From contig NZ_BJZT01000032.1 in the NCBI RefSeq assembly GCF_007992175.1, positions 1 through 64,000 on the forward strand: DNA of 64,000 nucleotides, in the 5' to 3' direction. How positions within the stretch are numbered: position 1 is the stretch's first letter; the number at the start of each line of letters is the position of its first letter. This stretch comes from Methylobacterium haplocladii (GTDB lineage Bacteria > Pseudomonadota > Alphaproteobacteria > Rhizobiales > Beijerinckiaceae). Shown here in pieces: positions 19,337-63,662 of this stretch. The notes beneath the pieces are model-generated. The model made no database searches. It saw only the letters and a list, made by a program, of their open reading frames with translations, and had not been told where the DNA came from. The translations under genes were made by a program, and so were the position numbers.

Positions 19337-22300
19337 TCAAGCCGCCGCGTTCGCCCGCGCCAAATCGGCATCGATCGCCTCGAGCGCCGCCCGCTTCCGA
19401 TCGAGTTCCCCCTGCAGGTCAAACGCCTTGCCGATGCTGGGCTCCGTCCCCCGGACGAGGTTTTCGTAATAGGCCAGATTCTCGCGCCGGGATTGGAGGC
19501 GGCCTGGGAGAGCATCAAGCGCCTCTTCGACCTGACCGATGGCCACGACACCGGGCGTGTTCGCGCGGGTGGTCAGGGAGAGCCAGAGCCCGGTCGTCTG
19601 GATGCGGCAGTCCGCGACGATCGACCCGTCGGAAGTCGCTCGGCTGGTGTAGACGATGTCGAAGCCGCGGAACGTCGCGATGGGCCGATCGACGATGCCC
19701 TGCCCGCGGACGTAGCGAGCCATCACCTCCTGGTTGATCGTCCGCATCGCAGTCGTCAGCGCCTTGCCGGCAAACTTGCGGTCGGTGAACTCGGCGTCCC
19801 CTACGGTGATCACAAACGGCGTGTCCTCGGGCGGCAGCCGCGCCACGTCTGCTTCGAGCAGCGGGATCACGCGCAGGTCCTCCTCGATCGCGTGCCGCGC
19901 GGAGGCGAGGCGCGACCGGAACCGGTGCTGCTCGTCGGAATGCGCCGAGCGCAGCCGTTCGAGGCGGGTGATGTCCGCCTCCAGGCCAGCCTTCTGCATC
20001 AGCCGGGGATCGCCGGACGCGATCGCCTTCGCCAGGGCGAACTGGTCGGCGCTCGATTCCCCGACGTCCTCGATGCGGCGCACCGATCGATCGCCGGACA
20101 GCGCCGCCGCGATGAAGCGGGCCTTGCGCTCGTTGGTCTGCCACATCTGGGCGTCCATCGAGCCCTCGGTCGCATAGGCGTAGAGCTCGATCTCCGCGTT
20201 CTGATTGCCCTGCCGGTCGATGCGGCCTTCGCGCTGCTCGATGTCGGAGGGCAGCCACGGCACGTCGAGATGGTGGAGTGCCTTCAGCCGATTCTGGGCG
20301 TTGACGCCGGTCCCCATCTTCTTCGTCGAGCCCAGCACGATGCGCACCTTGCCGGCGCGCATGTCGGCGAACAGTCGGGCCTTGGCCTTGGCGCCCTTGA
20401 AGTCGTGCACGAAGGCGATCTCGGCCGCCGGGACGCCCAAAGCGATGAGGCGGTGGCGCGCCCAGAGGTATGCCGAGAACCCGCGTTTCTCGAACGCCGC
20501 CGGCGTGCCAAGATCTGAGAAGATCATCTGCGTCGCGCCGGGCCGCTCGAACGGCTTCCCGAACGGGTCGAGGTAGGTCTCGGCCGCCGTCTCCTTCCAG
20601 ATCCGGTGGACCTCGCGCACCATGCGGTTCAGCTTGTTGTCGGGCTCGTCGTCGTGCCCTGGCACCACGAAGCGCATGTCGATGGCTGCGTGCCGCCCGT
20701 CGGTGATGACGGACAGCAGGATGTCGTCGCCCTTCTGCGGAGGCCCACCGCGCGCCTCGATCGCCTCGATGCGATCGGCCAGCACCTCCTGGTAGTCGCG
20801 GAAGCCGTCGCTCGGCGGCACTGCGATGATTTCGCGCCGCCCGCCGCGGATGGGCGGCCGTCTTACCAGCTTCTTGAGGTCGTCAGCCGACACGACGTCC
20901 GCAACCGAGCGGAACATCGCGATGAGCTCCGGCACGTTCACGAACTCGGCGAAGCGGGTCACCGGCTTGTAGCGGCCGGACGCCTGCAGCTCGAGTTCGG
21001 TCCGGGTCTCGCCGAACGACGAAGCCCAGGCGTCGAACTCATGCAGGTTGCGGGCGCGCAGCCGGACCGGATCCATGAAGCGCTGGATCGTGAACATCTC
21101 GCCCAGCGTGTTCGTGATGGGCGTACCCGACGACATGATCACCGCCCGATCGACGGCCTCGGCTGCGACGCCGGCCCGTTCCGCGCGCAACGCCCGCACG
21201 AAGCGGATCTTCGCGTAGAGGTCCCAGGACAGTTGCGAGCCGTTCGGATCGATGCCCTTCAGCGTCGACATCGAACTGGTGAAGCTGAGCTTGCGGTACT
21301 CGTGGGCCTCGTCCGGGATGATCTGGTCGATGCCGATCTCCGACAGCGTGAGGAAGTCGTCCTTCCGGTCAGACAGCAAGTTGAGCTTCTTCTCGAATCC
21401 CTCCTTCATCGCCTCGACCCGCTTGCGGGTCAGCCGCTCGTGCTCAGGGATGTCGAGGAGCACGGCCTCGTACTCATCGATCATCTCGCGGATCATGCGC
21501 CGCTCGAAGTCGATTGGGATGGGGATCAGCTTGAACGCTGCGTGCGTGATGACGATCGCGTCCCAGGCGCCGGTGGCGGCGCGCGCCAGGAAGCGGCGGC
21601 GCCTGTCGCGGGCGAAGTTCTGCTCGTCGGCGACCAGGATCCGCGCCAGCGGATAGAGCGTCAGGAACTCGCGGGCGAACTGCACGAGGCAGTGCCCCGG
21701 CACCGCGATGATCGGCTTATGGACAAGGCCCAGGCGCCGTTGTTCGAGCACCGCGGCGGCGAGGGCCGCACTCTTGCCCGCACCGACGGCGTGGGCGAGG
21801 TACGTCGAGCCCGCCGCCAGCACTCGCCAGATCGCGTTCTTCTGATGCGGCCGAAGCTGGAATTCCGACGACGCCCCGGGCAGGCGGAGGTGGCCTCCGT
21901 CAAAGCGTCGGGTCACGAGATCGTTGAAGTTGTCATTGTAGATGCGCGCGAGCCGGTCGCACTGCGCCGGGTCCTGCCAGACCCATTCCTGAAAAAGCCC
22001 CTTCAGGATCGCGAGCTTCTCCTTGGCGGCCTCGGTCTCGATGGCGTTGAGGACGCGGCTCATGGTGCCGCGGTCGTTCGGCTCCTCGTCGTAGATCGCC
22101 GGGATGTGAGCGTTCAGCGCATCAAGCAGCACCTTGCCGCAGTCGTAGCGGTGCGTACCCCAACGGGCGTTGGCTTGGGCGTCGCCGGAGAAGGCGCGCG
22201 CATTGATCGACCACGACGCCACCTCGGGCGCGTGGCCGACCTCGGCCGAGTGGACGCGCATGACCTCGCGCGCGAAGCGGGTAACGACGTCGACCGGGAT

Positions 22301-24346
22301 CCAGGGCGCGCCGAGCCGCGCGGTGATGTCGGAAGGCGGAATGTCGCTCGGCTGAACGGCTTCGAGCGCGGCGACGTTGCGGGCATAGGCCGGATCGATG
22401 GCTGCAGCCTGTCGCGCGGCCGCCAACTTCACGCGGACCGTGCCGGACAGGTATTCGTCGGCGGTGACCCACGATTCCGAGTCCGGGTCGAGGTAGATCA
22501 GGTCGCCGAGTTCGTCGACGACGCCGGCCTCGGCGGTCCCGCGCAGCTGCGCGATCCGCGGGACATCGACGAAGCCGAGTTCGTGCAGGCAGCGGGCGAG
22601 CGCATCGGACGCGGACTGGATCGCCGGCTCGGGCTGGTGCGCGATGACGGTGCCGGTGAAGATTAGCGCCTTCGTCGCGTTGCCGCTTTCCAGATCGTAG
22701 TGCTCGATCGAGGCGACCAGCCAGCAGTCGGGATCGTCGCGGAAGGGTTCGAGGTTCGGCTGCCGGTGCGTCTCGTGCCGAGTGCCGTCGTCCGCGATGC
22801 GCTCCTGGATCGTCGTGAAGTTGATCGCGCCGTGCCGCGCCACGAACACGTCGTAGAGGTCGCCGAGCCGCGCCTGCGCTGCCGCCGAGTCCTTGCGGCC
22901 CTCCTGCAGCGCCAGGACGGCGCGGACCGCATCGCGGATCGGGATCAGGGCGCGGATCAGCCCGGCATGCTTGCCGACGAGACCCGTAACACCCGGCGCA
23001 CGCAGCGGTACCGCTTGGCCAGCACCGTCGATGACCTGCATCAGCACGCCGTCGGCCGAGACGAAGTAGGAGCCCTCGCGCAGCCGGTCGTTGTCGTTCA
23101 CGGCCGGTGCCGGCCGAACGGCATCGACCCTGGCGAGGCCTACCCCGGAATCGCAGGTCGCGACGTCCTTGGGCAGATTCGCGATGGCGGCGGAGAGGCG
23201 TGCGTCGAGTTCGCCCGGATAGGCCCGGCAGGTATAGACTGGGTCAGGACCGTAGGGACCGCGGGCGGCCGAGTGCTGGCCCAACACCATGCTGGGGTGC
23301 GCGAGGAAGTAGCGGTTGATCGCGATCTTCGGGTGACCCGCGATGACGCCGGCTCGGGTCTCGGTCCAGATCGGCGCAACAGGGCTCTCGTCCGCCATGC
23401 GCTTGCGGAAGAAGAGGACGTCGACGCCGACCTCCGTCCCGGCGCTCTCCCGGAACGCGCCGGCCGGCAACCGGATCGCGCCCATGAGATCGGCGACCGA
23501 GGCCAAGCGTCGACGCACCGAGGCATCGGCCTTGTCCATCGTGCCCTGCGAGGTGACGAACGCGGCAAGGCCGCCGGGCAGGACGTGGTCGAGCGCCTTC
23601 ACGATGAAGAAGTCGTGCAGGCGGTAGCCGGCTGAGCGGTAGCGGGGGTCGCCGTTGACGACGCGCGACGAGAACGGGGGATTGCCGACGGCCAGCGCGT
23701 AACCGGATTCGAGCCGGGTCAGCGCGAAATCTTCGGTGCGGATATCGGCCTCCGGCAGCAGCTGCCGCGCGATGCGGGCAGTGACCGGGTCGGCCTCGAT
23801 GCCGGTGATCCGGCAAAGCGACCGCAGGGGCTCGGGCTGCAGCGACAGAAACAGCCCGATCCCGCATCCAGGCTCAAGGATATGGCCGCCGCGGAAACCA
23901 AGGCGGGTGAGACCATCCCAAATCGCGCGGATGATCAATTCCGGGGTATAGTGCGCGTATTGCGTGCTTCGAGCGAGCGCAGCGTGTTCGGATTTGCTGA
24001 CTAGACCCTCCATCCGGCGTCCAAGATCGGACCAGCCCTGCCGGTAATCTGTGTTATTTGGTGAGGGGAAGCAGCTATTTGCAAGTTCACTGGCACCAAA
24101 GCCGGTGAAGATCGATAGCTTTTCCTGTTCATCGCGTGTCGCAGGCCGAGCATCGCCCGCGACAGAGAGTGAAAGTTCAATTGCCGCGAGGTTTGCTTCG
24201 GCTCTGGCGCGCCAGCCCTTCGGCAAAGGGCGGTCGCCGTCGAGGTAGAAGTTTCCGGCCGGCGCCGATACCGCGGGGGCCGCCTCGTGCGCGGCATCAG
24301 GCCGGCTCGGTGGTAGCGCATCGCCGGGCCCGAACAGCCCGAACAT
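19337..24346 (-). CDS. Giant N6-methylase/SNF2-type helicase protein (DarB-like antirestriction)
   Basis: The product has 1669 residues. The N-terminal methylase domain has motif I ILEPGCGIG (about 156-164), an acidic SAM-ribose motif GIEADP, and catalytic NPPF (about 226). A superfamily 2 helicase follows: Walker A HAVGAGKS (about 850), DEAH-type box IPDEAHEY (about 1015), motif III SSGTPITN, and motif VI QREGRIDRQG (about 1375). The fused layout matches phage P1 DarB and large plasmid/ICE methylase-helicases. DarB is packaged into virions and shields incoming DNA from type I restriction. The residues are intact, so it should be active. It is the largest gene of the window and is transcribed alone from the 24.35-24.65 kb gap. 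Confidence 0.85.
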   Translation of the reverse strand: MFGLFGPGDALPPSRPDAAHEAAPAVSAPAGNFYLDGDRPLPKGWRARAEANLAAIELSLSVAGDARPATRDEQEKLSIFTGFGASELANSCFPSPNNTDYRQGWSDLGRRMEGLVSKSEHAALARSTQYAHYTPELIIRAIWDGLTRLGFRGGHILEPGCGIGLFLSLQPEPLRSLCRITGIEADPVTARIARQLLPEADIRTEDFALTRLESGYALAVGNPPFSSRVVNGDPRYRSAGYRLHDFFIVKALDHVLPGGLAAFVTSQGTMDKADASVRRRLASVADLMGAIRLPAGAFRESAGTEVGVDVLFFRKRMADESPVAPIWTETRAGVIAGHPKIAINRYFLAHPSMVLGQHSAARGPYGPDPVYTCRAYPGELDARLSAAIANLPKDVATCDSGVGLARVDAVRPAPAVNDNDRLREGSYFVSADGVLMQVIDGAGQAVPLRAPGVTGLVGKHAGLIRALIPIRDAVRAVLALQEGRKDSAAAQARLGDLYDVFVARHGAINFTTIQERIADDGTRHETHRQPNLEPFRDDPDCWLVASIEHYDLESGNATKALIFTGTVIAHQPEPAIQSASDALARCLHELGFVDVPRIAQLRGTAEAGVVDELGDLIYLDPDSESWVTADEYLSGTVRVKLAAARQAAAIDPAYARNVAALEAVQPSDIPPSDITARLGAPWIPVDVVTRFAREVMRVHSAEVGHAPEVASWSINARAFSGDAQANARWGTHRYDCGKVLLDALNAHIPAIYDEEPNDRGTMSRVLNAIETEAAKEKLAILKGLFQEWVWQDPAQCDRLARIYNDNFNDLVTRRFDGGHLRLPGASSEFQLRPHQKNAIWRVLAAGSTYLAHAVGAGKSAALAAAVLEQRRLGLVHKPIIAVPGHCLVQFAREFLTLYPLARILVADEQNFARDRRRRFLARAATGAWDAIVITHAAFKLIPIPIDFERRMIREMIDEYEAVLLDIPEHERLTRKRVEAMKEGFEKKLNLLSDRKDDFLTLSEIGIDQIIPDEAHEYRKLSFTSSMSTLKGIDPNGSQLSWDLYAKIRFVRALRAERAGVAAEAVDRAVIMSSGTPITNTLGEMFTIQRFMDPVRLRARNLHEFDAWASSFGETRTELELQASGRYKPVTRFAEFVNVPELIAMFRSVADVVSADDLKKLVRRPPIRGGRREIIAVPPSDGFRDYQEVLADRIEAIEARGGPPQKGDDILLSVITDGRHAAIDMRFVVPGHDDEPDNKLNRMVREVHRIWKETAAETYLDPFGKPFERPGATQMIFSDLGTPAAFEKRGFSAYLWARHRLIALGVPAAEIAFVHDFKGAKAKARLFADMRAGKVRIVLGSTKKMGTGVNAQNRLKALHHLDVPWLPSDIEQREGRIDRQGNQNAEIELYAYATEGSMDAQMWQTNERKARFIAAALSGDRSVRRIEDVGESSADQFALAKAIASGDPRLMQKAGLEADITRLERLRSAHSDEQHRFRSRLASARHAIEEDLRVIPLLEADVARLPPEDTPFVITVGDAEFTDRKFAGKALTTAMRTINQEVMARYVRGQGIVDRPIATFRGFDIVYTSRATSDGSIVADCRIQTTGLWLSLTTRANTPGVVAIGQVEEALDALPGRLQSRRENLAYYENLVRGTEPSIGKAFDLQGELDRKRAALEAIDADLARANAAA

Positions 24347-37776: not shown

Positions 37777-38055
37777 TCAGACCACCATCCCGAGGGCCTG
37801 CTGATACAGTTCGAGGATCGCCTCCTCTTCCTGGCGTTCAGCGTGGTCCTTCTTGCGCAGGCGCAGGATCGTGCGAACAGCCTTTACGTCGAAGCCGCGA
37901 CCCTTCATCTCGGCGAACACTTCTTTGATGTCGCCGGAAATAGCTGCTTTTTCTTCTTCCAGGCGTTCGACGCGTTCGATGAACTGTCTAAGCTCATCGG
38001 CGGCGACGCCTTCGGACGACACGTCTTGCGTCGAAACGGAATGTGTGCTTTGCAT
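37777..38055 (-). CDS. gapR: GapR (DUF2312) nucleoid-associated protein
   Basis: In 92 residues the GapR core is nearly complete: [20 protein letters not shown], then [20 protein letters not shown], and [18 protein letters not shown]. GapR is an essential or near-essential alphaproteobacterial protein that forms tetramers encircling overtwisted AT-rich DNA and assists topoisomerases ahead of forks. A phage copy could support its own replication or alter host supercoiling. It is 3 bases before the DUF1064 gene. Confidence 0.93.
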
Positions 38056-38607: not shown

Positions 38608-39142
38608 GAGCCGATCCCCGGGTTTCCCGATAAAGCTTCTGGTGCGTGGCGGCGGCAGTTTCGGCCGCGATCTCGCGGTGCCGGGCCAAGTGGTGCCGCC
38701 GGCAGAACCACGTCACAACGAGCGGGCGGGCGTAGTCCTCGTGATGGGCCTCGACGCGCTTCGTCGTTCCGCAGGTCGCGCAGGGGCCCTTCGTCAGGGT
38801 GCCGCTGCGCAGCGCCCGGCACACCGCCTGATGCGCGCGGCGTTTCTCTGGGTTCGCGCACTGCCAGCGGCGGTTCTTCGTCGTCGAGAAGCCGGGATGT
38901 GCGGCGCGGTAGGCCTTCTGCTTGGCGCTGTTGCAGCCCGAGCAGAACAGACGGAACCCCACGCCGGAGCCGTCGGAACGGCGCACCAGCTGTCGCTCGC
39001 CGCCGCAGGCTGGGCAGTGGCGCAGGGGCGCCCTGCCGTCGCGCAAAGGGGAACCCTGCGGTGGCACGTCGGTAGGGGGAACCACCGCAGGGATCGGCCC
39101 GTGCATTCGGGCGCGATGGGGATTGGGGGTGAGAGCCGACAT
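38600..39142 (-). CDS. Zinc-binding HNH/endonuclease-VII-like protein
   Basis: The start ATG 39142 overlaps the Cro gene's stop by 1 base. The product has two zinc knuckles (CPACGGERQLV, FCSGCNSAKQKAY) and a C-terminal nuclease-like part: CATCGTTKRVEAHHEDYARP followed by WFCRRHHLARH, as in recombination-endonuclease VII and NinG-type proteins. It is a probable phage recombination or Holliday-junction nuclease in the early operon. Confidence 0.72.
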   Translation of the reverse strand: MSALTPNPHRARMHGPIPAVVPPTDVPPQGSPLRDGRAPLRHCPACGGERQLVRRSDGSGVGFRLFCSGCNSAKQKAYRAAHPGFSTTKNRRWQCANPEKRRAHQAVCRALRSGTLTKGPCATCGTTKRVEAHHEDYARPLVVTWFCRRHHLARHREIAAETAAATHQKLYRETRGSAHV

Positions 39143-39399
39143 CAGGCGACCCTCTTTTCGAGGATCCGCTGGCGCCGTCTCGGTACACGCAGTGCGTGGA
39201 TGCGGACGAGACAGTCGTTGTCGATCGGTAGAGCGTTCGCCGTCGCGTAGTCGACGATGCAGGGCCAGTAATCGACCGGAATGGAGCCGCGGGCGAGGAT
39301 ATCGCTCCCTCGAGCACCGGGATTTTTCAGAAAGCCGCAGATGCGCCCAAACTTGGTTGGACCACCCAGCGCTTCCACGATTTCGCGTACGGAGTTCAT
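39142..39399 (-). CDS. Cro-like repressor
   Basis: This small protein (85 residues) carries REIVEALGGPTKFGRICGF and SIPVDYWPCIVDYATANALP, matching the Cro/YdaS-type phage regulators of alphaproteobacteria. It starts the leftward early operon and lies opposite the CI-type gene, separated by the operators at 39413-39453. It should compete with the repressor for those operators. Confidence 0.72.
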   Translation of the reverse strand: MNSVREIVEALGGPTKFGRICGFLKNPGARGSDILARGSIPVDYWPCIVDYATANALPIDNDCLVRIHALRVPRRRQRILEKRVA

Positions 39400-39412
39400 G
39401 GCGGGGCAAGCA

Positions 39413-39453
39413 TTACGCCTAATGCGTAACGACTGTCAACGCACAATGCGTAA
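39413..39453. promoter_or_regulatory. Operator pair between cro-like and cI-like genes
   Basis: Two 17-bp sites with the pattern TTACGC-N5-GCGTAA. Site 1 (39413-39429) is perfect. Site 2 (39437-39453) has one degenerate arm (CAACGC). Their centres are 24 bp apart. The -10/-35 elements for both divergent genes must lie over them. The spacing equals that of the pair at 40451-40491. Confidence 0.75.
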
Positions 39454-39475
39454 CAGGCCGTGCGTATCTCGGCGG

Positions 39476-40081
39476 ATGGATACCCCGGCCGAACGCCTCC
39501 AATTTCTCCGTAAGCGCGCTGGCTTCGAAACAGCCTCGGATGCGGCCCGAGCCTACGGTTGGACGAAGTCCACCTATCTTGGGCACGAAAACGGGGACCG
39601 AAACCCGTCGCGTGAAAGCGCGAAACGCTATGCGAAGGCGTACAAGGAGCGGTGGGAGTGGATCATCGACGGCGAGCAAAAGTCGCCGGGCGGTGATGCC
39701 GACACGGTGCCGATACTCGGCGATGTCGGCGCAGGGGGGAAAGTCTACTTCTCTGGCGCGCCCGAAGGTGGCTACGACCGCGCACCGCGTCCGCCTGGTG
39801 GTTCCGCAACGACTGTTGCCGCCCGGGTCCGTGGAGATTCGATGCCCGGCATCGCCGAAGACCAGTGGCTGATCTACTACGACAGCCGCGTGGCGAGCGT
39901 GCCGGACGAGTTCCTCGGCGAGTTGTGCGTCGTGTGGCTCTCCGACGATCGCGTCTACGTCAAGAAGGTGTACCGGGGGCGAGACCCCGGCACCTTCGAT
40001 TTGATCTCCTCGGGCTACGAACCGTTGCGCAACGAGGACGTCGAGTGGTGCGCGAAAGTGACCTGGATCAAGCCGCGCTAG
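39476..40081 (+). CDS. CI-type repressor with S24 (LexA-like) domain
   Basis: The start is set at ATG 39476; the open frame upstream runs through the operators. N-terminal XRE HTH: LQFLRKRAGFETASDAARAY and STYLGHENGDRNPSRE. C-terminal S24 domain with an Ala-Gly autocleavage site in DVGAGGKV, catalytic Ser in VRGDSMPG and Lys in VYVKKVYRG. It would be cut in the RecA-stimulated way, linking induction to DNA damage. It is flanked on both sides by the repeated operators, so it very likely controls both early operons and itself. Confidence 0.92.
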   Translation: MDTPAERLQFLRKRAGFETASDAARAYGWTKSTYLGHENGDRNPSRESAKRYAKAYKERWEWIIDGEQKSPGGDADTVPILGDVGAGGKVYFSGAPEGGYDRAPRPPGGSATTVAARVRGDSMPGIAEDQWLIYYDSRVASVPDEFLGELCVVWLSDDRVYVKKVYRGRDPGTFDLISSGYEPLRNEDVEWCAKVTWIKPR

Positions 40082-40326
40082 TAGTCGTCGTGCTCGGGCA
40101 CGTCACCGATTCTGGACAAGAATGTAGGCACCGTACACTCGTCTGATCTGTCGTCACTCGATGTTGAGAAAGCCAAGGCTCCGATGGCATGTCGCTGTTC
40201 GACGAGCCTTTCGGCGAGCCGTTTAGCGCTATCAGCTGTACTGCACATTTGGATTGGCGCGGTCTTGATCGGTCCGCGACCGGTTCGCACGAACGGTTGA
40301 ACGCCGAAACTCTGGGAACGCGCCAT
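40078..40326 (-). CDS. Small unknown protein, paralogue of 63119-63373
   Basis: The 82-residue product shares a spaced pattern with the protein at 63119: VQPFV/VQSFV near the start, an alanine-rich helix, a D-D/D-E segment, and a GDVP/GQVP ending (FLSRIGDVPEHDDY). The function is unknown. It is divergent from the rightward early operon across the operators at 40399-40491 and convergent with the repressor gene (4-base overlap), so it is probably repressor-controlled. Confidence 0.55.
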   Translation of the reverse strand: MARSQSFGVQPFVRTGRGPIKTAPIQMCSTADSAKRLAERLVEQRHAIGALAFSTSSDDRSDECTVPTFLSRIGDVPEHDDY

Positions 40327-40398
40327 CTGAAACTCCTCGTGGAGACCAGAAGCTGATCCTAAAAACGGAACGAAACAAGAACAAAAGTGCGCTTTGGG

Positions 40399-40491
40399 TT
40401 ACGCATGCTGCGGCCCTGTGGATAACGGTGACGAAAAAATCTCGGACATGTTACGCATTTTGCGTTGACGTATATTACGCATTCGGCGTAA
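40399..40491. promoter_or_regulatory. Operator cluster before the rightward early operon
   Basis: Three sites of the TTACGC-N5-GCGTAA type: 40399-40415 (right arm degenerate), 40451-40467 (right arm GCGTTG) and 40475-40491 (perfect). The last two have centres 24 bp apart, as in the cro-side pair. A TTGACG (40465-40470) with TAACGT 18 bases further forms a promoter overlapping the perfect site. The whole 40327-40521 gap is regulatory. Confidence 0.75.
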
Positions 40492-40521
40492 CGTCTGGTC
40501 ATTCCGAAGCCGGAGCGACCG

Positions 40522-40809
40522 ATGTCCCAGAGCGCGCCGAACCCGAAGCCCCTTGCACCGCCGGACCGCCTCACGGCGTTCTTCGCGACACTCGACCGCC
40601 AGCTCGCCTTCCTCGCGCGGCCTGATCACCAGATCGACGAGCTGAACCTGCGCATCGCCCACAACGAGCGGTGCAAGAGCTACCTCTGCCGGGTCGGTTC
40701 GCAGAACTATGACGCCTTCGATCTGACCGCGATCGACGCCGGGCTCCACGGTCGGTTGGCCGATGCCATGGCGCGGCGCGACGCACCTGCGATGCAGGAG
40801 GCCGCATAG
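40522..40809 (+). CDS. Small unknown protein, first gene of rightward operon
   Basis: ATG 40522 begins the plus-strand early operon immediately after the operator cluster. The 95-residue product has helical parts (DRLTAFFATLDRQLAFLARP; DELNLRIAHNERCKSYL). No family is recognised. Its stop lies directly before the next ATG. Confidence 0.5.
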   Translation: MSQSAPNPKPLAPPDRLTAFFATLDRQLAFLARPDHQIDELNLRIAHNERCKSYLCRVGSQNYDAFDLTAIDAGLHGRLADAMARRDAPAMQEAA

Positions 40810-42639: not shown

Positions 42640-43946
42640 AGATCTTTCGCCTCGAAGCCGAGAACGTGAAGCGGCTCAAGGCCGTCTCCATCACGCCCGA
42701 CGGCAATCTCGTGGAGATCACGGGCCGTAACGGCCAAGGCAAGTCGTCGGTCCTCGACGCGATCTGGTGGGCGTTGTCCGGAACGAAGCCGATTCAGGCC
42801 GTGCCGATCCGGAAGGGTCAGGATGAGGCCCGCATCCGGCTCGACCTCGGCGAGATCCGGGTCACCCGCACCTTCAAGAAGCGCGATGGCGCCGAGTTCA
42901 CCACGGCGGTGGTCGTCGAGAACGCAGACGGCGCGCGCTTCGCCCGTCCGCAGGAGCTTCTCGACAAGCTGCTCGGCCAGTTGTCGTTCGATCCGCTTGC
43001 CTTCACCCGCATGGACGGCCGGCAGCAGCTCGACGCGATGAAGCGTTTCGTGCCGGGCTTCGACTTCGCCGGCACGGAGAAGGCGAACAAGGACGATTTC
43101 GCCGGGCGGACCGAGGTGAACCGTTCTGCGAAAGCGCTGCGCGCTCAAGCCGACGGCATCACGGTCCCGTCCGGCACGCCCGAGGCCCGCATCGACACCG
43201 CCGCGCTCGTCGCGGAGATGGAACAGGCCGGCGAGCACAACACCGACATCGAACGGCGGCGTGGCCGGCGTGAGCAGGCCGAGCGTGCCATCGAGGCCTA
43301 TGCCGAGACCGCCGCGGGGAGCCGCAACCGGGCCGCCGCGTTGCGGAAGGAAGCGGACGAAGCCGAGGCTCGTGCCGACCGCGACGATGCCGAGGCCGGG
43401 CGGATCCGGGCAAGCCTCGCTGAGGCCTCTGCCCTGCCCGATCCCATCGACACCTCGGCGCTGCGCCAGCGCATCGCCGCCGCCGGCGAGACCAACGCCG
43501 CCGTGGCGCGCCGCGAGGAGCGTGACCGGATCGACGCCCGCGCCAAGGAGGCCGAGGCGAAAGCGGCCGCGCTCACCAAGGCCATCGAGGGCCGCGTCGC
43601 CGGTATGCGCTCCGCCATCGCCCAAGCCGACCTGCCGGTACCGGGCATTGCCTTCGGTGACGACGAGATCCTGCTGAACGGCGTGCCGTTCGATCAGGCC
43701 TCGTCCGCTGAGCAGCTGCGCACCTCCGTCGCGATCGCCATGGCGGCCAATCCGAAGCTGCGCGTGATCCGCGTCCAGGACGGGTCGCTGCTCGATGCCG
43801 AAGCGATGGCGATCCTCGGCGAGATGGCCGACGCGGCCGACTGCCAGGTCTGGGTCGAGTGTGTGCAGTCGGGCCGCTCGACCGCGATCGTCATCGAGGA
43901 CGGCGAAGTCCTCGGCGCAACCGCCACCCCCATCGCCGCGGAGTAG
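42636..43946 (+). CDS. SMC/RecF-like AAA ATPase for recombination
   Basis: The start at ATG 42636 gives 436 residues: MKIFRLEAENVKRLKAVSI with Walker A GRNGQGKSS (about 31-39), a long helical coiled-coil centre (DIERRRGRREQAERAIEAYA; KEADEAEARADRDDAEAGRI), and a C-terminal part LLDAEAMAILGEMADAADCQ with the signature/Walker-B-like NPKLRVIRVQDGSLL. It precedes the YqaJ-type nuclease and RecT genes, so it probably works with them in phage recombination or DNA end handling. Confidence 0.82.
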   Translation: MKIFRLEAENVKRLKAVSITPDGNLVEITGRNGQGKSSVLDAIWWALSGTKPIQAVPIRKGQDEARIRLDLGEIRVTRTFKKRDGAEFTTAVVVENADGARFARPQELLDKLLGQLSFDPLAFTRMDGRQQLDAMKRFVPGFDFAGTEKANKDDFAGRTEVNRSAKALRAQADGITVPSGTPEARIDTAALVAEMEQAGEHNTDIERRRGRREQAERAIEAYAETAAGSRNRAAALRKEADEAEARADRDDAEAGRIRASLAEASALPDPIDTSALRQRIAAAGETNAAVARREERDRIDARAKEAEAKAAALTKAIEGRVAGMRSAIAQADLPVPGIAFGDDEILLNGVPFDQASSAEQLRTSVAIAMAANPKLRVIRVQDGSLLDAEAMAILGEMADAADCQVWVECVQSGRSTAIVIEDGEVLGATATPIAAE

Positions 43947-43951
43947 CCCCC

Positions 43952-44893
43952 ATGAAGATCGAACGCATTCCCTACACCACGCGCGATGCCTGGCTTGCCG
44001 GCCGCGCGAAGGACATCACCGCCTCGGTCGCCGGCGCGGTGCTCGGCGCCCACGAATACACAACCGCCTTCGAACTCTGGGCGCTGAAAAGTGGTCTCCT
44101 GTCGGAGGATCCGACCGAGACGCCGGCGATGCGCCGCGGCCGCCTCCTCGAGGACGACGCCCTGCAGATGCTGGCCGAGGATCGCCCGACCTGGACGGTC
44201 GAGCCGGGCGGCAACGTCTACCTGCGGGCGCCGGACTTTCGCATCGGCGCGACCCCGGACGCCTACGCCGTGGATCCGAACCGACCAGGCCGTGGCGTCG
44301 TGCAGGTCAAGACCGTCTCCGATCTGATCTTCCGCAAGAAGTGGAAGGATGACGACGGGTCCCTGAACCTGCCGGTCTGGATCGCCTGCCAAGCCATCGT
44401 CGAGGCGAAGCTCACCGGGGCATCCTGGGCCTGTGTCGTGCTGATGGTCGTCGGCCACGGCCTCGACCTCCACGTGATCGACATCCCGCTTCACGCCGGA
44501 ATCTGGGACCGCCTCGTCGATGAGGCCGCGGCTTTCTGGGCTCGTGTCGACAGCGGCGAGGCGCCCCCCGCCGACTACGCTCGCGACGGCGACACCATCG
44601 CCGATCTCTGGCCGCCGGATGCGACCCGCGAGGTCCTCGATCTGTCCGGCGACAACCTCATCCCGATGCTCGTCGACGAACTCGACGACGCCAAGGGCCG
44701 CATCAATCTCGACGAGACCCGCGTCAAAGAGATCAAGGCCGAACTCGTCGAGAAGCTCGCCGGCGCCACCGTCGGCCGCCTCGCCGACGGCCGCGAGATC
44801 ACCCGCACGATCCAGCGGCGCGGCGAATTCACGGTCAAGGCGACCAGCTTCCCCGTCCTGAAAATCCGCGCACCGCGAAAGGCCGCAGCATGA
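43952..44893 (+). CDS. YqaJ/lambda-exonuclease-like recombinase
   Basis: The start is set at ATG 43952; 313 residues. PD-(D/E)xK core: DAWLAGRAKDITASVAGAVL (YqaJ-type start), RRGRLLEDDALQMLAEDR, APDFRIGATPDAYAV (Asp) and VVQVKTVSD (E/Q-x-K). This is the 5'-3' double-strand exonuclease that feeds single strands to RecT. It is 5 bases after the ATPase gene and overlaps recT by 4 bases. Confidence 0.87.
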   Translation: MKIERIPYTTRDAWLAGRAKDITASVAGAVLGAHEYTTAFELWALKSGLLSEDPTETPAMRRGRLLEDDALQMLAEDRPTWTVEPGGNVYLRAPDFRIGATPDAYAVDPNRPGRGVVQVKTVSDLIFRKKWKDDDGSLNLPVWIACQAIVEAKLTGASWACVVLMVVGHGLDLHVIDIPLHAGIWDRLVDEAAAFWARVDSGEAPPADYARDGDTIADLWPPDATREVLDLSGDNLIPMLVDELDDAKGRINLDETRVKEIKAELVEKLAGATVGRLADGREITRTIQRRGEFTVKATSFPVLKIRAPRKAAA

Positions 44894-45855
44894 GCCACGC
44901 TCTCGAACTCACCCAAACCGAACGCAAGATCGCGGAACGCATCGATCCGTCCTCGATGGACGGGCTGACGGTTTCGTCGTCCGCCGGCGGCATCGTGTTC
45001 GCCAACGCCGCCGAGGTCATGAACTACGCGAAGATGATGGCCGTCGCGAATAGTGGCGTCCGTAAGCACCTCCGCGGAAACGTTGGCGCCTGCCTCGCGA
45101 TCGTGACCCAGGCCGTCGAGTGGGGCATGTCGGCCTACGCGGTGGCGAACAAGAGCTACTTCTTCAACGACCAGATCGCCTTCGAGTCTCAGCTCGTCCA
45201 GGCCGTGATCCTGAAGCGGGCGCCGATCAAGGGCCGGATCAAGTTCGAATTCACTGGCGAGGGCGAGAAGCGCAAGTGCCGGGCCTGGGCGCGCCTTGCC
45301 GACGATCCCGAAGAGATCGCCGAGTACATCTCGCCCGAGTTCGGCAAGATCACCCCGAAGAACTCGCCGCTTTGGAAGTCCGACCCGGATCAGCAGCACT
45401 GCTATTATGCCGGTCGCGCCCTGTGCCGCCGCCATTTCCCCGACGTGCTGCTCGGCGTCTACGGCGAGGACGAACTGACCCCTCCTCCGCCCGGGCCGGA
45501 CAACGCGCGCGACGTCACGCCCGCGAAGGGGTTGAACGCGAAGCTCGATGCCCTCGCCGCCCGGCCGAAGTCGCAGATCGATCACGCCGAGGATGCCGAG
45601 TTCAGCGAGGCGTTCACCGGTGGCGACCATGAGACCGGCGCCAACGAGACGGTACCCGAGTCGGACGGAGGCGGTGACGATCCGGCCCCCGACATCGATC
45701 CGCAGAGCGCCGCCTACAAGCTCGGCCACGACGGCGGGATGAAAGGCTTTCGGAAAGGGCTGACGGCCGCGATCAAGGAAGATCCGGCGCAGTTGGCGAA
45801 CTACGAAGCCGGGTATTCGGCCGCCCTGCATGAAAAGAACCGGGAGGACGACTGA
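44890..45855 (+). CDS. recT: RecT-family single-strand annealing protein with RMF-like tail
   Basis: The first about 200 residues follow the RecT pattern: VMNYAKMMAVANSGVRKHLRG, CLAIVTQAVEWGMSAYAVAN (the RecT W-G-M motif), KSYFFNDQIAFESQLVQAVI, and CYYAGRALCRRHFPDVL. After an acidic linker, the C-terminal 40 residues (AAYKLGHDGGMKGFRKGLTA; NYEAGYSAALHEK) look like a ribosome-modulation-factor-type module. The tail is unusual and may bind RNA or DNA. Coupled to the exonuclease by a 4-base overlap. Confidence 0.9.
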   Translation: MSHALELTQTERKIAERIDPSSMDGLTVSSSAGGIVFANAAEVMNYAKMMAVANSGVRKHLRGNVGACLAIVTQAVEWGMSAYAVANKSYFFNDQIAFESQLVQAVILKRAPIKGRIKFEFTGEGEKRKCRAWARLADDPEEIAEYISPEFGKITPKNSPLWKSDPDQQHCYYAGRALCRRHFPDVLLGVYGEDELTPPPPGPDNARDVTPAKGLNAKLDALAARPKSQIDHAEDAEFSEAFTGGDHETGANETVPESDGGGDDPAPDIDPQSAAYKLGHDGGMKGFRKGLTAAIKEDPAQLANYEAGYSAALHEKNREDD

Positions 45856-56468: not shown

Positions 56469-56595
56469 CCGGCGAGGACGCCGGACGAGCGGCTCTTGCT
56501 TTTGACTCGACACCCTTCCCCGAATCGGCGTTCTTGCTTAACGCTTAAAGTTTCTCGGTCCGATTGGCCGATTTTCTGAAAACGTGTTCGGGGCA
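56469..56595. promoter_or_regulatory. Upstream region of repABC
   Basis: AT-richer gap with TTGACT (56502-56507), a TTAACGCTTAAAG stretch (56537-56549) and GGTCCGATTGGCCGATTT (56556-56573). One of these should contain the autoregulated repA promoter and RepA/RepB operator. No single -35/-10 pair is convincing. Confidence 0.4.
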
Positions 56596-57816
56596 ATGAA
56601 CCAACGTGCGGTCGTAGTACCACCCACGGAACGGGCGATCGAGGCGCCAGGCGCCCTCATCGGCCACGACGCTGCGACTCTGCGTAATCGGCTGCAGTCG
56701 ATCAGCTCCGGCCTGTTTCCACCGGACGCCGCGAAGACGCTTCGGCGGTTCGCGGCAAGCGAGGCGGCCAAGATCCTCGGGGTGACGGTTCAGCGGCTCA
56801 GCCAGCTGGAGGGCGACGAGGCCGTTCCGGACCCGGAGGTTTCGAACACGGGTCGGCGCTCCTACAGCCTCGATGACATCCATGCGATCCGGCTGCACCT
56901 AGACAAGGTGACGAAGACCGACCGGCGGTACGATCCCCGCCGCGAGGACGGCGAGCACCTTCAGGTCATCTCGGTCGTCAACTTCAAGGGCGGGTCCGGC
57001 AAGACCACCACGGCGGCGCATCTCGCGCAGTCGCTGGCGCTGCGCGGCTACCGGGTGCTGGCGATCGATCTCGACCCGCAGGCCAGCCTGTCCGCGCTGC
57101 TTGGCGTGCAGCCCGAGATCGACGTCGCGCCGAACCAGACGCTCTACGCCGCCATCCGCTACGACGACGACCGCCGGGCGTTGAGCGAGGTGATCCGCAG
57201 GACCTACTTCGCCGGTCTGGATCTGGTCCCGGCCAACCTCGAACTGCAGGACTTCGAATTCGACACGCCGCGGGCTTTGACCAGCCGGCAGCCGGGCGAA
57301 CCGCTGTTCTTCGAGCGGATGGCGCGGGTGCTGGACGAGGTCGAGGCCGAGTACGACGTCGTGGTCGTCGATTGCCCGCCGCAGCTCGGCTACCTGACGC
57401 TCTCCGCGCTCAGCGCCGCGACCGCACTCCTGGTCACGGTCCACCCGCAGATGCTGGACGTCGCCTCGATGAGCCAGTTCCTGGCGATGGTCGAGGACCT
57501 GCTGTCCGTCATCTCGGAGCAGGGCGCCACACTGAGCTACGATTGGATCAGCTACCTGATCACGCGCTACGAGCCCCAGGACGGCCCGCAGACGCAGGTC
57601 GTCGGCATGCTCCGCGACCTGTTCGGCGATCGCGTCCTGACGAGCCCGATGTTGAAGTCGTCAGCTGTGTCCGATGCCGGGCTCTCGAAGCAGACCCTCT
57701 ACGAAATGGGACGCGCCGGGGTGACGCGCTCGACCTATGACCGTGCCCTCGAGGCGGTCGATCTGGTCAACAGCGAGATTGAAGCCAAGATGCAGCGCGG
57801 TTGGGGCCGGGCATGA
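56596..57816 (+). CDS. repA: RepA: ParA-type partition ATPase of repABC
   Basis: The start is ATG 56596 (alternative GTG 56584); 406 residues, normal for RepA. N-terminal HTH (AASEAAKILGVTVQRLSQLE and SYSLDDIHAIRLHLDKV) for operator binding; ATPase with the variant Walker A FKGGSGKTTTAA (about 132-143), AIDLDPQASL, VVVDCPPQLGYLTLSAL, and LYEMGRAGVTRSTYDRALEA. RepA acts with RepB in partition and represses repABC. Stop overlaps repB by 4 bases. Confidence 0.96.
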   Translation: MNQRAVVVPPTERAIEAPGALIGHDAATLRNRLQSISSGLFPPDAAKTLRRFAASEAAKILGVTVQRLSQLEGDEAVPDPEVSNTGRRSYSLDDIHAIRLHLDKVTKTDRRYDPRREDGEHLQVISVVNFKGGSGKTTTAAHLAQSLALRGYRVLAIDLDPQASLSALLGVQPEIDVAPNQTLYAAIRYDDDRRALSEVIRRTYFAGLDLVPANLELQDFEFDTPRALTSRQPGEPLFFERMARVLDEVEAEYDVVVVDCPPQLGYLTLSALSAATALLVTVHPQMLDVASMSQFLAMVEDLLSVISEQGATLSYDWISYLITRYEPQDGPQTQVVGMLRDLFGDRVLTSPMLKSSAVSDAGLSKQTLYEMGRAGVTRSTYDRALEAVDLVNSEIEAKMQRGWGRA

Positions 57817-58913
57817 GCAGAAAGGCGAACCTCAGCGCCCTGCTCGCCGGCAAGACTGCGCCTGCCCCAGGGCCGCAGACGGACGCGCCGGCGGGGAACT
57901 TGGCAGCTGCCAAGATCACCCCTGCCCCCACTGACAAGCCCGACTTGGCAGCTGCCAAGAAAGCGCCGCCGGACTGGTCGGCGCGGCCTCGAAGCGGCGC
58001 GATCCGCGGCATGGAAGCGACGCTTCGGACGCTGGCAGACGGACCAGGGCGGCCCGAGGACGGCACGTCGGTCGTCGAACTGGATCCGACCCTGCTCGAC
58101 CCGTCCATGGTCGTCGACCGCGTTGCCGATCCCGGTGATCCGTCTTTCGCGGCGCTCGTCGACAGCATGCGTGATGGCGGACAGCAGGTCCCGATCCTGG
58201 TGCGCCGACATCCGCAGAGCACCGGCCGGTTCCAGATCGCCTATGGGCACCGTCGCTGGCGCGCCGCAGCCGAACTCGGCCGGCCGGTTCGGGCCCTCAT
58301 CAAGCCCCTGACGGACGATGAACTCGTCGTCGCGCAAGGCAAGGAAAACCTCGAACGGCGTGACCTCAGCTATATCGAGCGGGCACTGTTCGCCGCCCGC
58401 ATGGAAGCCCAGGGGTTCAAGCGCGAGACGATCTGGTCCGCGATGGGGACCGTCGAGTCGGAGATCAGCCGGTACGTCGCGATCGTCGCCAACGTGCCCG
58501 AGCATCTCATCGCGGCGATCGGGCCGGCCCCGAAAATCGGGCGCCCGCGCTGGGTGGCTTTCAGCGATCGGTTGAGGGCGGTGGGCGCTGGTCTTGCCGA
58601 AGCCGCCGTGGCTGAGCCCGGTTTCGCAGAGAAGGCGACCGACGACCGGTTCGCCGCCGTGTTCGCGGCGCTGACCGCGAAGCCGGCAGCGAAGGCACAG
58701 AGGCCGCAAGTCTGGAAGGACCCCAGAGGTCGCAAGGTCGCGCGCGTCGAGCGCAGCGGCGGCCGCTTCATTCTGTCGATCGATGAGACGCTGGCGCCCA
58801 GACTTGGGCCCGCTCTGTTCGAACGGCTTCCCGAGATCCTGGCCGCCCTTGAGGCCGGCGAGGACGAACCCGTTCCGCAACGCGAACCGAAAGGAGACCG
58901 ACCCCCGGAATAA
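57813..58913 (+). CDS. repB: RepB: ParB-type centromere-binding protein
   Basis: The start ATG 57813 is coupled to repA; 366 residues. Visible: an N-terminal linker carrying two identical LAAAK segments (they encode the palindromes at 57899-57959), SGAIRGMEATLRTL, the ParB boxes LVDSMRDGGQQVPILVR, QIAYGHRRWRAAAELGRPVR and QGKENLERRDLSYIERALFA, and the HTH part KRETIWSAMGTVESEISRYV. C-terminal dimerisation region RPRLGPALFERLPEI-like. It should bind par sites and assist RepA. Confidence 0.95.
   Translation: MSRKANLSALLAGKTAPAPGPQTDAPAGNLAAAKITPAPTDKPDLAAAKKAPPDWSARPRSGAIRGMEATLRTLADGPGRPEDGTSVVELDPTLLDPSMVVDRVADPGDPSFAALVDSMRDGGQQVPILVRRHPQSTGRFQIAYGHRRWRAAAELGRPVRALIKPLTDDELVVAQGKENLERRDLSYIERALFAARMEAQGFKRETIWSAMGTVESEISRYVAIVANVPEHLIAAIGPAPKIGRPRWVAFSDRLRAVGAGLAEAAVAEPGFAEKATDDRFAAVFAALTAKPAAKAQRPQVWKDPRGRKVARVERSGGRFILSIDETLAPRLGPALFERLPEILAALEAGEDEPVPQREPKGDRPPE
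57899..57959. repeat. Twin 16-bp palindromes in repB (candidate par sites)
   Basis: CTTGGCAGCTGCCAAG occurs at 57899-57914 and again at 57944-57959, both perfect palindromes with the same flanking A, centres 45 bp apart. The CAGCTG core recalls the centromere-like sites of some repABC plasmids. They lie inside the repB frame. Confidence 0.55.
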
Positions 58914-58965
58914 GAAAAGGCCCCCCGAACCGCGTCCGGAAGGCCCTCTCTATTAGTCCTGGCAG
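58912..58965 (-). ncRNA. Candidate antisense ctRNA (incompatibility RNA) between repB and repC
   Basis: On the minus strand TTGACG (58999-58994) is followed after 17 bases by a weak -10 ATTCTC (58976-58971), giving a start near 58965. An intrinsic terminator follows: an 11-bp G-U-containing stem (58919-58945), loop CGCGG, then TTTTCTT. The RNA would be about 50-55 nt, the size and place of the ctRNA that represses repC in repABC plasmids. Predicted by position and structure only. Confidence 0.65.
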
Positions 58966-59059
58966 ACGTAGAGAATCATACCTCCCGGCACATCGTCAAG
59001 CGATTTGACGCCGACCCGTTTCGGCGAACGCCCGATCTTTGCCCGGCTTCGGCCACGCC

Positions 59060-60334
59060 ATGATCGATCATTTCACGACGCCCTTTGGGCGGCGATCGCT
59101 GACGGCTGCGCAGATCCAAGCGCAGGCGAAGGCAGCCGCATGCCCGCCCGAGACCACCGCCGACAAATGGGCAGTGGTCCGCCACGTCTCGACGGCCCGC
59201 TGCGAACTGGGGTTGGCCGATCGCGCCATCGCGATCCTCTCGGCCCTGGTGAGCTTCCATCCGGAGACCAACCTCCAAGCCGGGGAGGGGGCACAACTCG
59301 TCGTCTTCCCGTCCAATGCGCAGATCCGGCTGCGCGCCCACGGCATCGCTGAGACGACCCTGCGGTACCACCTCGGGGCGCTCGTCGAGGCCGGCATCCT
59401 CATTCGCCGCGATAGCCCGAACGGGAAACGCTACGCCCGGAAAGGACAGGGCGGCGAGATCGCTGAAGCCTTCGGCTTCGACCTGACGCCGCTGGTGGCG
59501 CGTGCCGCCGAGTTCGCGGCAATTGCCGACCGGATCGCGGCGGCCGAACGCGCCGAGCGCCTGGCCAAGGAGCGGGTGAGTCTGAAGCGGCGCGATCTCC
59601 GCAAGCTGATCGAATGGGCGGCCGAGGCCGGCGCTGCTGGTCCGTGGGGAGCCCTGTCCCGGCAGCTTGAGGATCTGATCGACGGCTTTCCGCGCCGCCC
59701 GTCCGGCGAGGCCCTGGCGACGATGGATGCCGCGCTCGGCTCGCTCCTGACCGAAGCCCACAAGCATCTGGATGTCGTTGCGGAATCCACGATTCACGAT
59801 GGCAATGCCAGCGAAACACGACGGCACCATCATAATTCAAAACCAGAGACCGTTAGAATCGAACATACAAACGGCGGGAGCCCAGAAGAACCGGTGGCGC
59901 CACAGGACCGAGAGGGCAGGGCCGGGTCGACGTACCCGTTGCCCATGGTGATCGAGGCCTGCCCCGACATCGTCGACTATGCTCGGGGTGGCGTCAGGAC
60001 GTGGGGCGACTTGATCGATGCTGCCGAGCTCGTCCGCGGCATGCTCGGGATCAGCCCAACCGCCTGGCGCGAGGCTCGCGACGCAATGGGACCGGAAACG
60101 GCGGCCGTAACGGTGGCGGCGATCCTGCAGCGGGCCGAGCACATCCGAAGCCCAGGCGGCTACTTGCGGTCTCTGGTCGAACGAAAGCGGGGAGGGCTGT
60201 TCAGCCTGGGACCGGTCCTGCAGGCGCTGCTGCGAGCCCGCGATCCGGCGACGATGCACGCGGGGAGGGATAAGTTCGGCGTTCCGCGGCCGTCAGGGGT
60301 GCCCAGCATGGCCCCGCGCAGGGCAGGCGGGTAG
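59060..60334 (+). CDS. repC: RepC: replication initiator of repABC
   Basis: The start is ATG 59060 (a TTG at 59039 is in frame); 424 residues. The family start is clear: FTTPFGRRSLTAAQIQAQAK, then KWAVVRHVSTARCELGLADR, IAILSALVSFHPETNL and VVFPSNAQIRLRAHGIAETT, YHLGALVEAGILIRRDSPNG. Second part: YPLPMVIEACPDIVDYA and WGDLIDAAELVRGMLGIS. RepC is the only initiator needed and binds oriV inside its own gene; an AT-rich stretch lies at 59782-59873. Controlled by the ctRNA just upstream. Confidence 0.96.
   Translation: MIDHFTTPFGRRSLTAAQIQAQAKAAACPPETTADKWAVVRHVSTARCELGLADRAIAILSALVSFHPETNLQAGEGAQLVVFPSNAQIRLRAHGIAETTLRYHLGALVEAGILIRRDSPNGKRYARKGQGGEIAEAFGFDLTPLVARAAEFAAIADRIAAAERAERLAKERVSLKRRDLRKLIEWAAEAGAAGPWGALSRQLEDLIDGFPRRPSGEALATMDAALGSLLTEAHKHLDVVAESTIHDGNASETRRHHHNSKPETVRIEHTNGGSPEEPVAPQDREGRAGSTYPLPMVIEACPDIVDYARGGVRTWGDLIDAAELVRGMLGISPTAWREARDAMGPETAAVTVAAILQRAEHIRSPGGYLRSLVERKRGGLFSLGPVLQALLRARDPATMHAGRDKFGVPRPSGVPSMAPRRAGG
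59782..59873. other. AT-rich island within repC (candidate oriV)
   Basis: About 90 bases centred on the disordered linker of RepC are clearly AT-richer than the rest (for example CATCATAATTCAAAACCAGA and GTTAGAATCGAACATACAAA). In repABC plasmids oriV lies in an AT-rich part of repC. Confidence 0.55.
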
Positions 60335-62563: not shown

Positions 62564-63073
62564 TCAGCGCCTCCCCCGGACAAGCGGCCTGTGCAGCCGT
62601 AGCGACGTAGTGACGACGCCCCAGATTTCGGCTTCGGCGATGTCCTCGATCGGTGTCGCCGGCAGATCTGGGCTGTCGAAGGACAGAAGCGCCCGGTTGC
62701 CTTTCAGGCGATAGCGTTTCAGCGAAGCGGTCCCGTCTATGATCGCGAGCACGATGTCGTCGTGCGCCGGGGTGACGCTGCGATCGACCACGACGATGTC
62801 TCCATCGTGGATGCCGGCGCGGATGACCGACGAGCCCGATACGCGCCATAGGAAGGTCGCCGGCGGATTCGGCACCAGCCAGCGCGGCAACCCAAGCGCC
62901 TCCTCCATGAAGTCGTCGGCCGGGGACGGAAACCCGGCGCACACGGCCGGCCCCATGAGGGGCACCTCGATCGTTCCGAGGCTGTCCACGGGTAGTTCGT
63001 CGTACGTGACGAGATGCACCTTGTTCTCCCTCGCAGACAGGAACACAACGGGAACAAGCAGCCGGCGGTTCAA
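62564..63073 (-). CDS. umuD: UmuD-like S24 protein without UmuC
   Basis: The 169-residue product has the UmuD order: cleavage region VCAGFPSPADDFME, then LWRVSGSSVIRAGIHDGDIV with the catalytic Ser (usual G-D-S-M is G-S-S-V here), and TASLKRYRLKG with the Lys. UmuD is self-cleaved upon RecA activation and forms polymerase V with UmuC. No umuC follows; the gene ends near 62564 and plus-strand genes lie beyond. It may join host UmuC or work as an SOS-sensing regulator. Confidence 0.85.
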   Translation of the reverse strand: MNRRLLVPVVFLSARENKVHLVTYDELPVDSLGTIEVPLMGPAVCAGFPSPADDFMEEALGLPRWLVPNPPATFLWRVSGSSVIRAGIHDGDIVVVDRSVTPAHDDIVLAIIDGTASLKRYRLKGNRALLSFDSPDLPATPIEDIAEAEIWGVVTTSLRLHRPLVRGRR

Positions 63074-63118: not shown

Positions 63119-63373
63119 ATGGCGATCAAGACCACCCACCTCGTGCAGAGCTTCGTGATCAAGCGGAAGCGACTGGTGCCCGGCGACCAGCAGCTGGCGC
63201 CGACCGAAAGCGGGGCGCTGAAACGCGCCGAGGCCATGGCCGGGCGGATACCGGGAACGGCCGCGATCCGGATCATGGCCGACGATGAAACCGGCGAGTT
63301 GGAGAGCGCGACGATCCTCGGTCAGTTCGGCCAGGTGCCGGACGACTTCGCCGAGCAGCTTCAAGGCGGCTGA
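63119..63373 (+). CDS. Small unknown protein, paralogue of 40078-40326
   Basis: Start at ATG 63119; 84 residues: LVQSFVIKRKRLVPGDQQLA, RAEAMAGRIPGTAAIRIMAD, and ESATILGQFGQVPDDFAEQL. This is a common alphaproteobacterial phage/plasmid family of unknown role (VP-D-D-F end). It is divergent from the UmuD-like gene across about 45 bases. It resembles the repressor-flanking gene at 40078. Confidence 0.6.
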   Translation: MAIKTTHLVQSFVIKRKRLVPGDQQLAPTESGALKRAEAMAGRIPGTAAIRIMADDETGELESATILGQFGQVPDDFAEQLQGG

Positions 63374-63662
63374 GATAGCTCGGCCCCGCCGCCCGATCTG
63401 ATCACGGGCTGGCGGGGGAGCGCTTGAATCTCACCAGCGGGTTGGGCCGATACGCAACATGGCCCGGAGAGCATAAGGCCGGCGGCCGGTTAGCCCGGGA
63501 TCAACGGTGCCGCCTCAAGCATGTGTCGGTCTGAGACGACCCGAGGCGTCGGCTGCTTGAGGCCGGCGTGTGGATAGCGGGGATTGCGGGCAAACCTCTG
63601 CGTGCCGTGAACCCAACTTCATCCATCCAACGTTGAGCACCCTGATCGTTCGAGGCCCACCG

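Follow-up and report, generated by a model that had tools for sequence, protein, structure and literature searches.

A stretch of 64,000 nucleotides from Methylobacterium haplocladii (contig NZ_BJZT01000032.1, positions 1 to 64,000; called the window below) carries two pairs of 17-bp sites on both sides of a repressor gene (39476..40081, plus strand). We read these sites as the operators of an immunity switch of the lambda type, which would belong to a temperate Methylobacterium phage that is possibly a phage-plasmid, and assign this full scheme a probability of about 0.88. The switch itself is of a known type, and its variant feature is a small gene with a LexA box inside the immunity region, here named P3.

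The pattern TTACGC-N5-GCGTAA occurs perfectly at 39413-39429 and at 40475-40491, as reported in the initial annotation of this DNA, and the mean number of perfect copies in 100 shuffles of the window was 0.00. A search of the whole host genome (4,631,050 bases) revealed two perfect copies in all, so the motif is not common in the host, and the reversed pattern used as a control had 0 copies in the same genome. The two partner sites that had been described at 39437-39453 and 40451-40467 show two mismatches and are located exactly 24 bp inward of the perfect copies. At the left side the predicted outer operator O1 (39413..39429) covers the spacer and -10 region of a presumed leftward promoter, and the left half CAACGC of the predicted inner operator O2 (39437..39453) is part of the corresponding -35 region. 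At the right side the predicted inner operator O2' (40451..40467) enters a -35 box with its right half GCGTTG and is followed by the predicted outer operator O1' (40475..40491), which has the perfect pattern.

If up to three mismatches are allowed, the window contains 26 matches compared with 17.7 +/- 4.9 in the shuffles, and 8 of 100 shuffles reach 26. As these counts are near chance, relatives were used to judge the weaker sites. A matrix assembled from 32 sites of eight relatives, with the window excluded, was applied to 63,984 window positions and placed O2' first (score 26.3), O2 second (25.7), O1 third (24.8) and O1' fourth (18.1). The next-best position, 48547 with two mismatches, reached a score of 10.9 (rank 5) and was not counted as an operator. 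This ranking measures conservation and not binding, because the relatives and the window share ancestry. An origin of the sites as palindromes of another host or phage regulator, or as chance repeats, is very improbable, given that the host genome has no further perfect copy and that, as described below, the operator words shift between repressor lineages while the layout stays.

A fifth site proposed at 40399-40415 had to be dropped. It has three mismatches, a noise-level matrix score of -0.2 (rank 22) and no conservation in the alignment of nine loci, and the terminator-like match that overlaps the same position is no more frequent than chance predicts (1 found, 1.3 expected). A candidate position for a third operator, O3, is located at 39451..39467 next to the repressor start, where it overlaps O2 by 3 bp. 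With the same matrix O3 ranks 5-6 in all eight relatives (loci of 3.6-12.6 kb); in the window it is decayed and has rank 51. The window therefore holds two clear sites per side and does not reach the three per side of lambda.

Viral contigs and genomes of the same genus encode close relatives of the repressor with 66-72% identity. The comparison set consisted of the window and eight distinct loci (L003, L005, L006, L007 and L012-L015); three further entries were not counted separately, since L011 duplicates the contig of L003 and both L004 and L010 represent the window itself. In all nine loci the left pair is located at -63/-39 from the repressor start with a pitch of 24 bp, and the right outer site starts 999-1055 bp past the repressor start with its partner 24 bp inward. 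The promoter-facing half of the inner sites is GCGTTG instead of GCGTAA in 18 of 18 cases (CAACGC when read outward), and the inner half-site forms together with the adjoining bases the word TTGAC in both pairs of all nine loci. Since GCGTTG and the next bases yield TTGAC, the half-site doubles as part of a -35 box, and the inner sites look degenerate because at both ends this half passes into the -35 box (GCGTTGAC). The description of the partners as degenerate copies thus stands with respect to their existence at 24 bp, but they are not simply weaker copies. The identical pitch and placement and the TTGAC word in both inner sites of all nine loci support the earlier proposal of a lambda-like arrangement with paired OL and OR sites.

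The -35 box of the presumed leftward (cro) promoter is TTGACA at 39434..39439 on the minus strand, with TTGAC in nine of nine loci, and candidates for its -10 element, which are poor matches, are available at 39411-39416 (17-bp spacer) or 39410-39415 (18-bp spacer) on the same strand. For the presumed rightward early promoter the matrix and the comparison of loci indicate TTGACG at 40465..40470 on the plus strand, with -10 candidates at 40488-40493 or 40489-40494. Left and right share one geometry, in which the -35 box is touched by the inner operator, and the outer operator covers the spacer of 17-18 bp and the -10 region. Outward activity of both promoters is inferred mainly from the conserved -35 words and this geometry.

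The repressor consists of 201 residues with a helix-turn-helix (HTH) domain and an S24 peptidase-like domain, the combination expected for a lambda-type switch. It matches PF00717 (E 1.2e-6) and PF01381 (E 2.9e-5), both above the cut-off, as well as PHROG 4 (E 3.5e-21), and a profile of the repressor family matches the lambda repressor structure 3bdn with E 8.6e-6. An alignment of nine clade members demonstrated that the serine of GDSM, the lysine of VKK/IKK and the segment VGAG are retained; we take the serine and the lysine to be the S24 dyad and the VGAG segment, with its Ala-Gly, to be a cleavage site. Judged from these residues the window repressor seems to be cleavable. In the distant repressors of L018 and L020 an alanine replaces the serine, and the examined stretch downstream of these two genes contains no perfect LexA box.

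Divergent from the repressor gene is a small conserved gene (39142..39399, minus strand), the first of the leftward operon, which codes for a putative Cro-like protein of 85 residues. It has no match in Pfam or PHROG. The carph-isopro domain of NCBIfam was matched with E 9.8e-4, which is below the cut-off, and with E 6.3e-8 in the L015 homologue. The predicted structure is all-helical with a mean predicted local distance difference test (pLDDT) score of 85.5, and the five best-matching PDB chains belong to N15 Cro, XPH1 and Xfaso 1 Cro; the likeness to Cro is weak but consistent. The rightward early operon starts with a gene at 40522..40809 (plus strand), whose ATG is preceded by GGAG at 40512-40515, and includes genes for a YqaJ/RecE-like exonuclease (43859-44893) and RecT (44890-45855), both on the plus strand and assigned by Pfam and PHROG. 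With the Cro-like gene on the left and the recombination operon on the right, the assignment of one operator set to the leftward and the other to the rightward early operon is supported, and the same operator sequence is present at both presumed early promoters with at least two sites each. The leftward operon additionally contains a gene for a GapR-like DNA-binding protein (37777-38055, minus strand; PF10073, E 7.5e-34).

Some of the more remote lineages, which have a different repressor HTH, carry other operator words on the same layout. Ten lineages were analyzed in detail, eight with a right pair in a strict scan plus L016 and L058, and in nine of these ten, which were chosen for right-side sites already seen, the right-side word recurs just upstream of the repressor with 0-2 mismatches. 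The words vary and include GTGCCC, ACTTAC, TTTGCC, CGCTAC, ATCTGC, CGATAC and others. In L016, L023, L058, L062 and L066 the cro side carries three matches and the right side two, some of them at 2-3 mismatches. In L016 and L017 the match to the window repressor is limited to residues 51-201 and 73-200 (54% and 64%), and the N-terminal part and the operators differ. As both change together in these two loci, the operator appears to be tied to the DNA-binding lineage. A helix phasing of the pitch across the remote lineages is not claimed, because values of 23-26 bp occur together with 30-35, 42 and 57 bp. In L062, L066, L058 and L023 the operator match nearest the repressor overlaps the apparent start codon, which suggests a leaderless repressor mRNA.

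Several observations weigh against the lambda-type switch. The strict scan for TTGAC pairs covered 24 remote loci and recovered the right pair in 8 and the left pair in 4; L056, one of the ten lineages, has no left site, and 2.3-7.8 chance matches per locus are expected in the remote lineages at up to three mismatches. A scan of 39300-40600 for consensus sigma-70 promoters found 0 (0.4 expected), and the -10 hexamers are poor, measured with the E. coli consensus as the yardstick. The fold matches of the Cro-like protein are weak, with E of 1.2 or higher in all cases. Finally, the operators could be read by Cro, either in addition to the repressor or in its place; the two are inseparable as readers of the sites in this comparison, because Cro may change along with the HTH of the repressor.

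For the lambda-type switch we propose the following course of events. Dimers of the HTH-S24 repressor would, in the lysogenic state, occupy the outer and the inner operator of each pair. At a distance of 24 bp from centre to centre two dimers would be placed near one face of the helix and could touch each other, a contact that may make their binding cooperative. With the -35 box covered by the inner dimer, and the spacer and -10 region by the outer one, the leftward (cro) and the rightward (recE/recT) promoters would be kept off. DNA damage might end the repression by self-cleavage of the repressor, by way of the convergent LexA-boxed P3 gene, or by both.

The P3 gene (40078..40326, minus strand) codes for 82 residues of an unnamed family and is convergent with the repressor gene, with an overlap of 4 bp at the stop codon. 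Its presence with a LexA box between the operator pairs was absent from the initial annotation. An AGGAG is located 6 nt ahead of the ATG. The LexA (SOS) box GTTCTTGTTTCGTTC has the form GTTC-N7-GTTC, lies at 40368..40382 on the minus strand, 42-56 bp upstream of the P3 start, and is kept in nine of nine aligned loci despite divergent surroundings. This form is given as the alphaproteobacterial LexA motif in PMC3323433. In the host itself, perfect boxes are located about 60-70 bp upstream of a LexA-domain match and 183 bp upstream of a RecA-domain match, and the genome contains 132 LexA-box words compared with 66 for the reversed control. At the density of the studied loci, 0.015 boxes are expected within 150 bp of a given gene. 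A LexA box is thus located at the P3 promoter, as would be the case for a LexA-controlled antirepressor, and LexA may control the gene in the cell. From these sequence features an SOS-linked role of P3 is likely.

Homologues of P3 are present in 19 of 111 genomes of the genus, the own genome included (E <= 1e-3). With a P3 profile (E <= 1e-6) matches were obtained in at least 111 of 397 genomes at the family level and at least 88 of 397 at the order level; these counts are lower bounds, with at most 13 candidates scored per genome. Counted by hand, 21 of 30 P3 genes have a perfect LexA box in either orientation within 150 bp upstream. Three of the nine boxless genes immediately follow another P3 gene as second copies, four (L064, L066, L072 and L074) have a box word with one mismatch, which is common by chance, and L063 and L070 have neither box nor near-box. 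Among the P3 rows from loci L095-L140 a LexA box is present in 12 of 47. Scans of 28 members gave no convincing match in Pfam or PHROGs (best values 0.05 and 0.026, one member each), and the two window copies gave none in NCBIfam. A fold search with a model of mean pLDDT 75.6 against PDB and viral libraries found nothing at E <= 0.001, and tblastn against a phage collection nothing at E <= 0.1. In the alignment 19 of 28 rows, those of L060-L076, end in ...PF, and the clade of the window has a terminal ...Y or ...F behind an acidic stretch. The ...PF tail is reminiscent of the C-terminal tail of SSB, and a relation between the two was considered and discarded; both P3 copies of the window are without that tail.

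One explanation of the P3 position is an SOS-induced antirepressor: after release of LexA, P3 would bind the convergent S24 repressor and strip it from both operator pairs, in the manner of the Gifsy antirepressors or Tum. The small size of P3, the LexA box in all nine loci and in 21 of the 30 genes, and the different operator words among P3-bearing loci are consistent with such a function. Moreover, a gene with a match to the repressor profile is present in 13 of 17 wider loci of the genus and is convergent with P3 in 13 of 13 cases; the gap is 20 bp or less, or the genes overlap, in seven loci, and it amounts to 0.28-7 kb in six. On the other hand, four of the 17 loci show no repressor-profile gene (two of the four are at contig ends), and the association is weak beyond the genus set. 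Among 17 loci of 10 kb (L144-L160) three contain a match to the repressor profile, among 46 loci of about 3 kb (L095-L140) five do, and L141-L143 have none. P3-like copies (E ~1e-9) also occur in many genomes of the genus, and a window repressor that keeps the S24 serine, the lysine and the Ala-Gly segment may need no antirepressor. We therefore regard antirepression by P3 as somewhat unlikely.

A second P3 copy in the window (63119-63373, plus strand) shares a LexA-boxed interval with the gene of a UmuD-like S24 protein (62564-63073, minus strand), which belongs to the family of the autoproteolytic subunit of pol V; the LexA box GAACACAACGGGAAC of this interval is located at 63041-63055. This arrangement, and a family that is widespread and outside the genus mostly without a nearby repressor, would fit a general SOS accessory protein in repair or mutagenesis, which is parked in SOS-linked immunity regions and leaves the switch untouched. 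Random parking would not yield the single orientation found in 13 of 13 genus loci, and we rate the chances of a general SOS role as a little short of even. Transcription of P3 might also be effective by itself: if the SOS response drives a transcript into the 3' end of the repressor gene, less repressor would be made, through an antisense effect or through collision. The convergent genes with overlapping stop codons in the window would allow this. However, conservation of the P3 protein sequence extends over the nine loci and far past them, which argues for selection of a protein function and makes the transcriptional explanation quite unlikely.

Farther upstream of P3 a second element, TATCCACA (within TTATCCACA), is located at 40417..40424 on the minus strand and reads T[AG]TCCACA in nine of nine loci. 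The word T-N-TCCACA resembles a DnaA box. It occurs on the same strand within 260 bp upstream of 21 of 30 P3 genes, with 0.012 expected per gene, and the window has three copies in total, one before P3, one on the opposite strand next to the second P3 copy and one at 63569. Nineteen loci contain this element together with a perfect LexA box, and in these the element is located 29-34, 41-44 or 71-75 bp upstream of the box. For 13 representatives, which are not fully independent, the distances show a phasing with a period of 10.5 bp (Rayleigh R 0.75, p ~7e-4); for L060, which has two elements, the farther one was used.

P3 may represent an undescribed SOS-induced family, widespread in the order, which acts on partners with the S24 fold (phage repressors, by antirepression or control of self-cleavage, and possibly UmuD) from a promoter that reads LexA and, in view of the roughly helix-phased T-N-TCCACA element, DnaA; in that case a cleavable repressor and an SOS input built into the immunity region would act together in one switch. 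In this complete form we consider the proposal unlikely. Among the matches listed from the open-access literature, neither this operator set nor P3 is described. The operators provide a sequence-predicted switch for Methylobacterium phages and their relatives and a natural series of words on one layout. The LexA-boxed P3 gene offers a testable second induction input in phages with a seemingly cleavable repressor, and the immunity region is a first context for a widespread family that lacks a convincing name in Pfam, PHROGs and NCBIfam.

The contig has a length of 105,247 bases and carries genes for a terminase, an integrase, a DarB-like antirestriction protein of 1669 residues (19337-24346, minus strand; PHROG 10089, 1548 bits) and plasmid replication and partition proteins of the RepA/RepB/RepC type (56584-60334). 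Since phage terminase and integrase genes are located beside RepA/RepB/RepC-type genes, the element may be a phage-plasmid. A comparison of the contig ends revealed no terminal overlap, so circularity is unsupported. An IMG/VR contig carries the same repressor at 100%.

In phage lambda Cro is encoded divergently from the repressor, as is the putative Cro-like protein here, and the operator spacing belongs to the 24-bp class. The operators of 17 bp and the repressor gene between two operator sets are further similarities. Lambda has six operators of 17 bp (PMC4997575), three per side, compared with two clear sites per side in the window, and its sets are about 2.3 kb apart (PMC5880393) compared with about 1.06 kb. 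In contrast to lambda, an inner half-site enters the -35 box at both ends in the window, and a LexA-boxed gene is located between the sets. By site number the arrangement can be compared with oL1, oL2, oR1 and oR2 of Rhizobium phage 16-3, a temperate phage of an alphaproteobacterium for which two operators are named per side (PMC12429752), and it is best understood as the lambda-type switch in this 2+2 form. The immB region of N15 and phiKO2 is also the switch of a plasmid prophage, with operators between cB and cro and two OL sites before repA (PMC4997575). It differs in that the operators are 16 bp long and are arranged as three plus two, that no residues of a self-cleaving repressor were detected in CB, and that OL lies before repA (PMC4997575) instead of before a recombination operon as in the window. 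With respect to P3, the closest parallels are GfoA and GfhA of the Gifsy phages, small LexA-controlled proteins which tie induction to the SOS response (PMC3121763), and Tum of phage 186, likewise a small LexA-controlled induction protein, likened here by a title cited in PMC9437464. In the Gifsy phages the repressors are uncleaved and the antirepressor is encoded outside the immunity region (PMC3121763), whereas P3 is located inside this region and is convergent with a repressor that retains the serine, the lysine and VGAG and is apparently cleavable.
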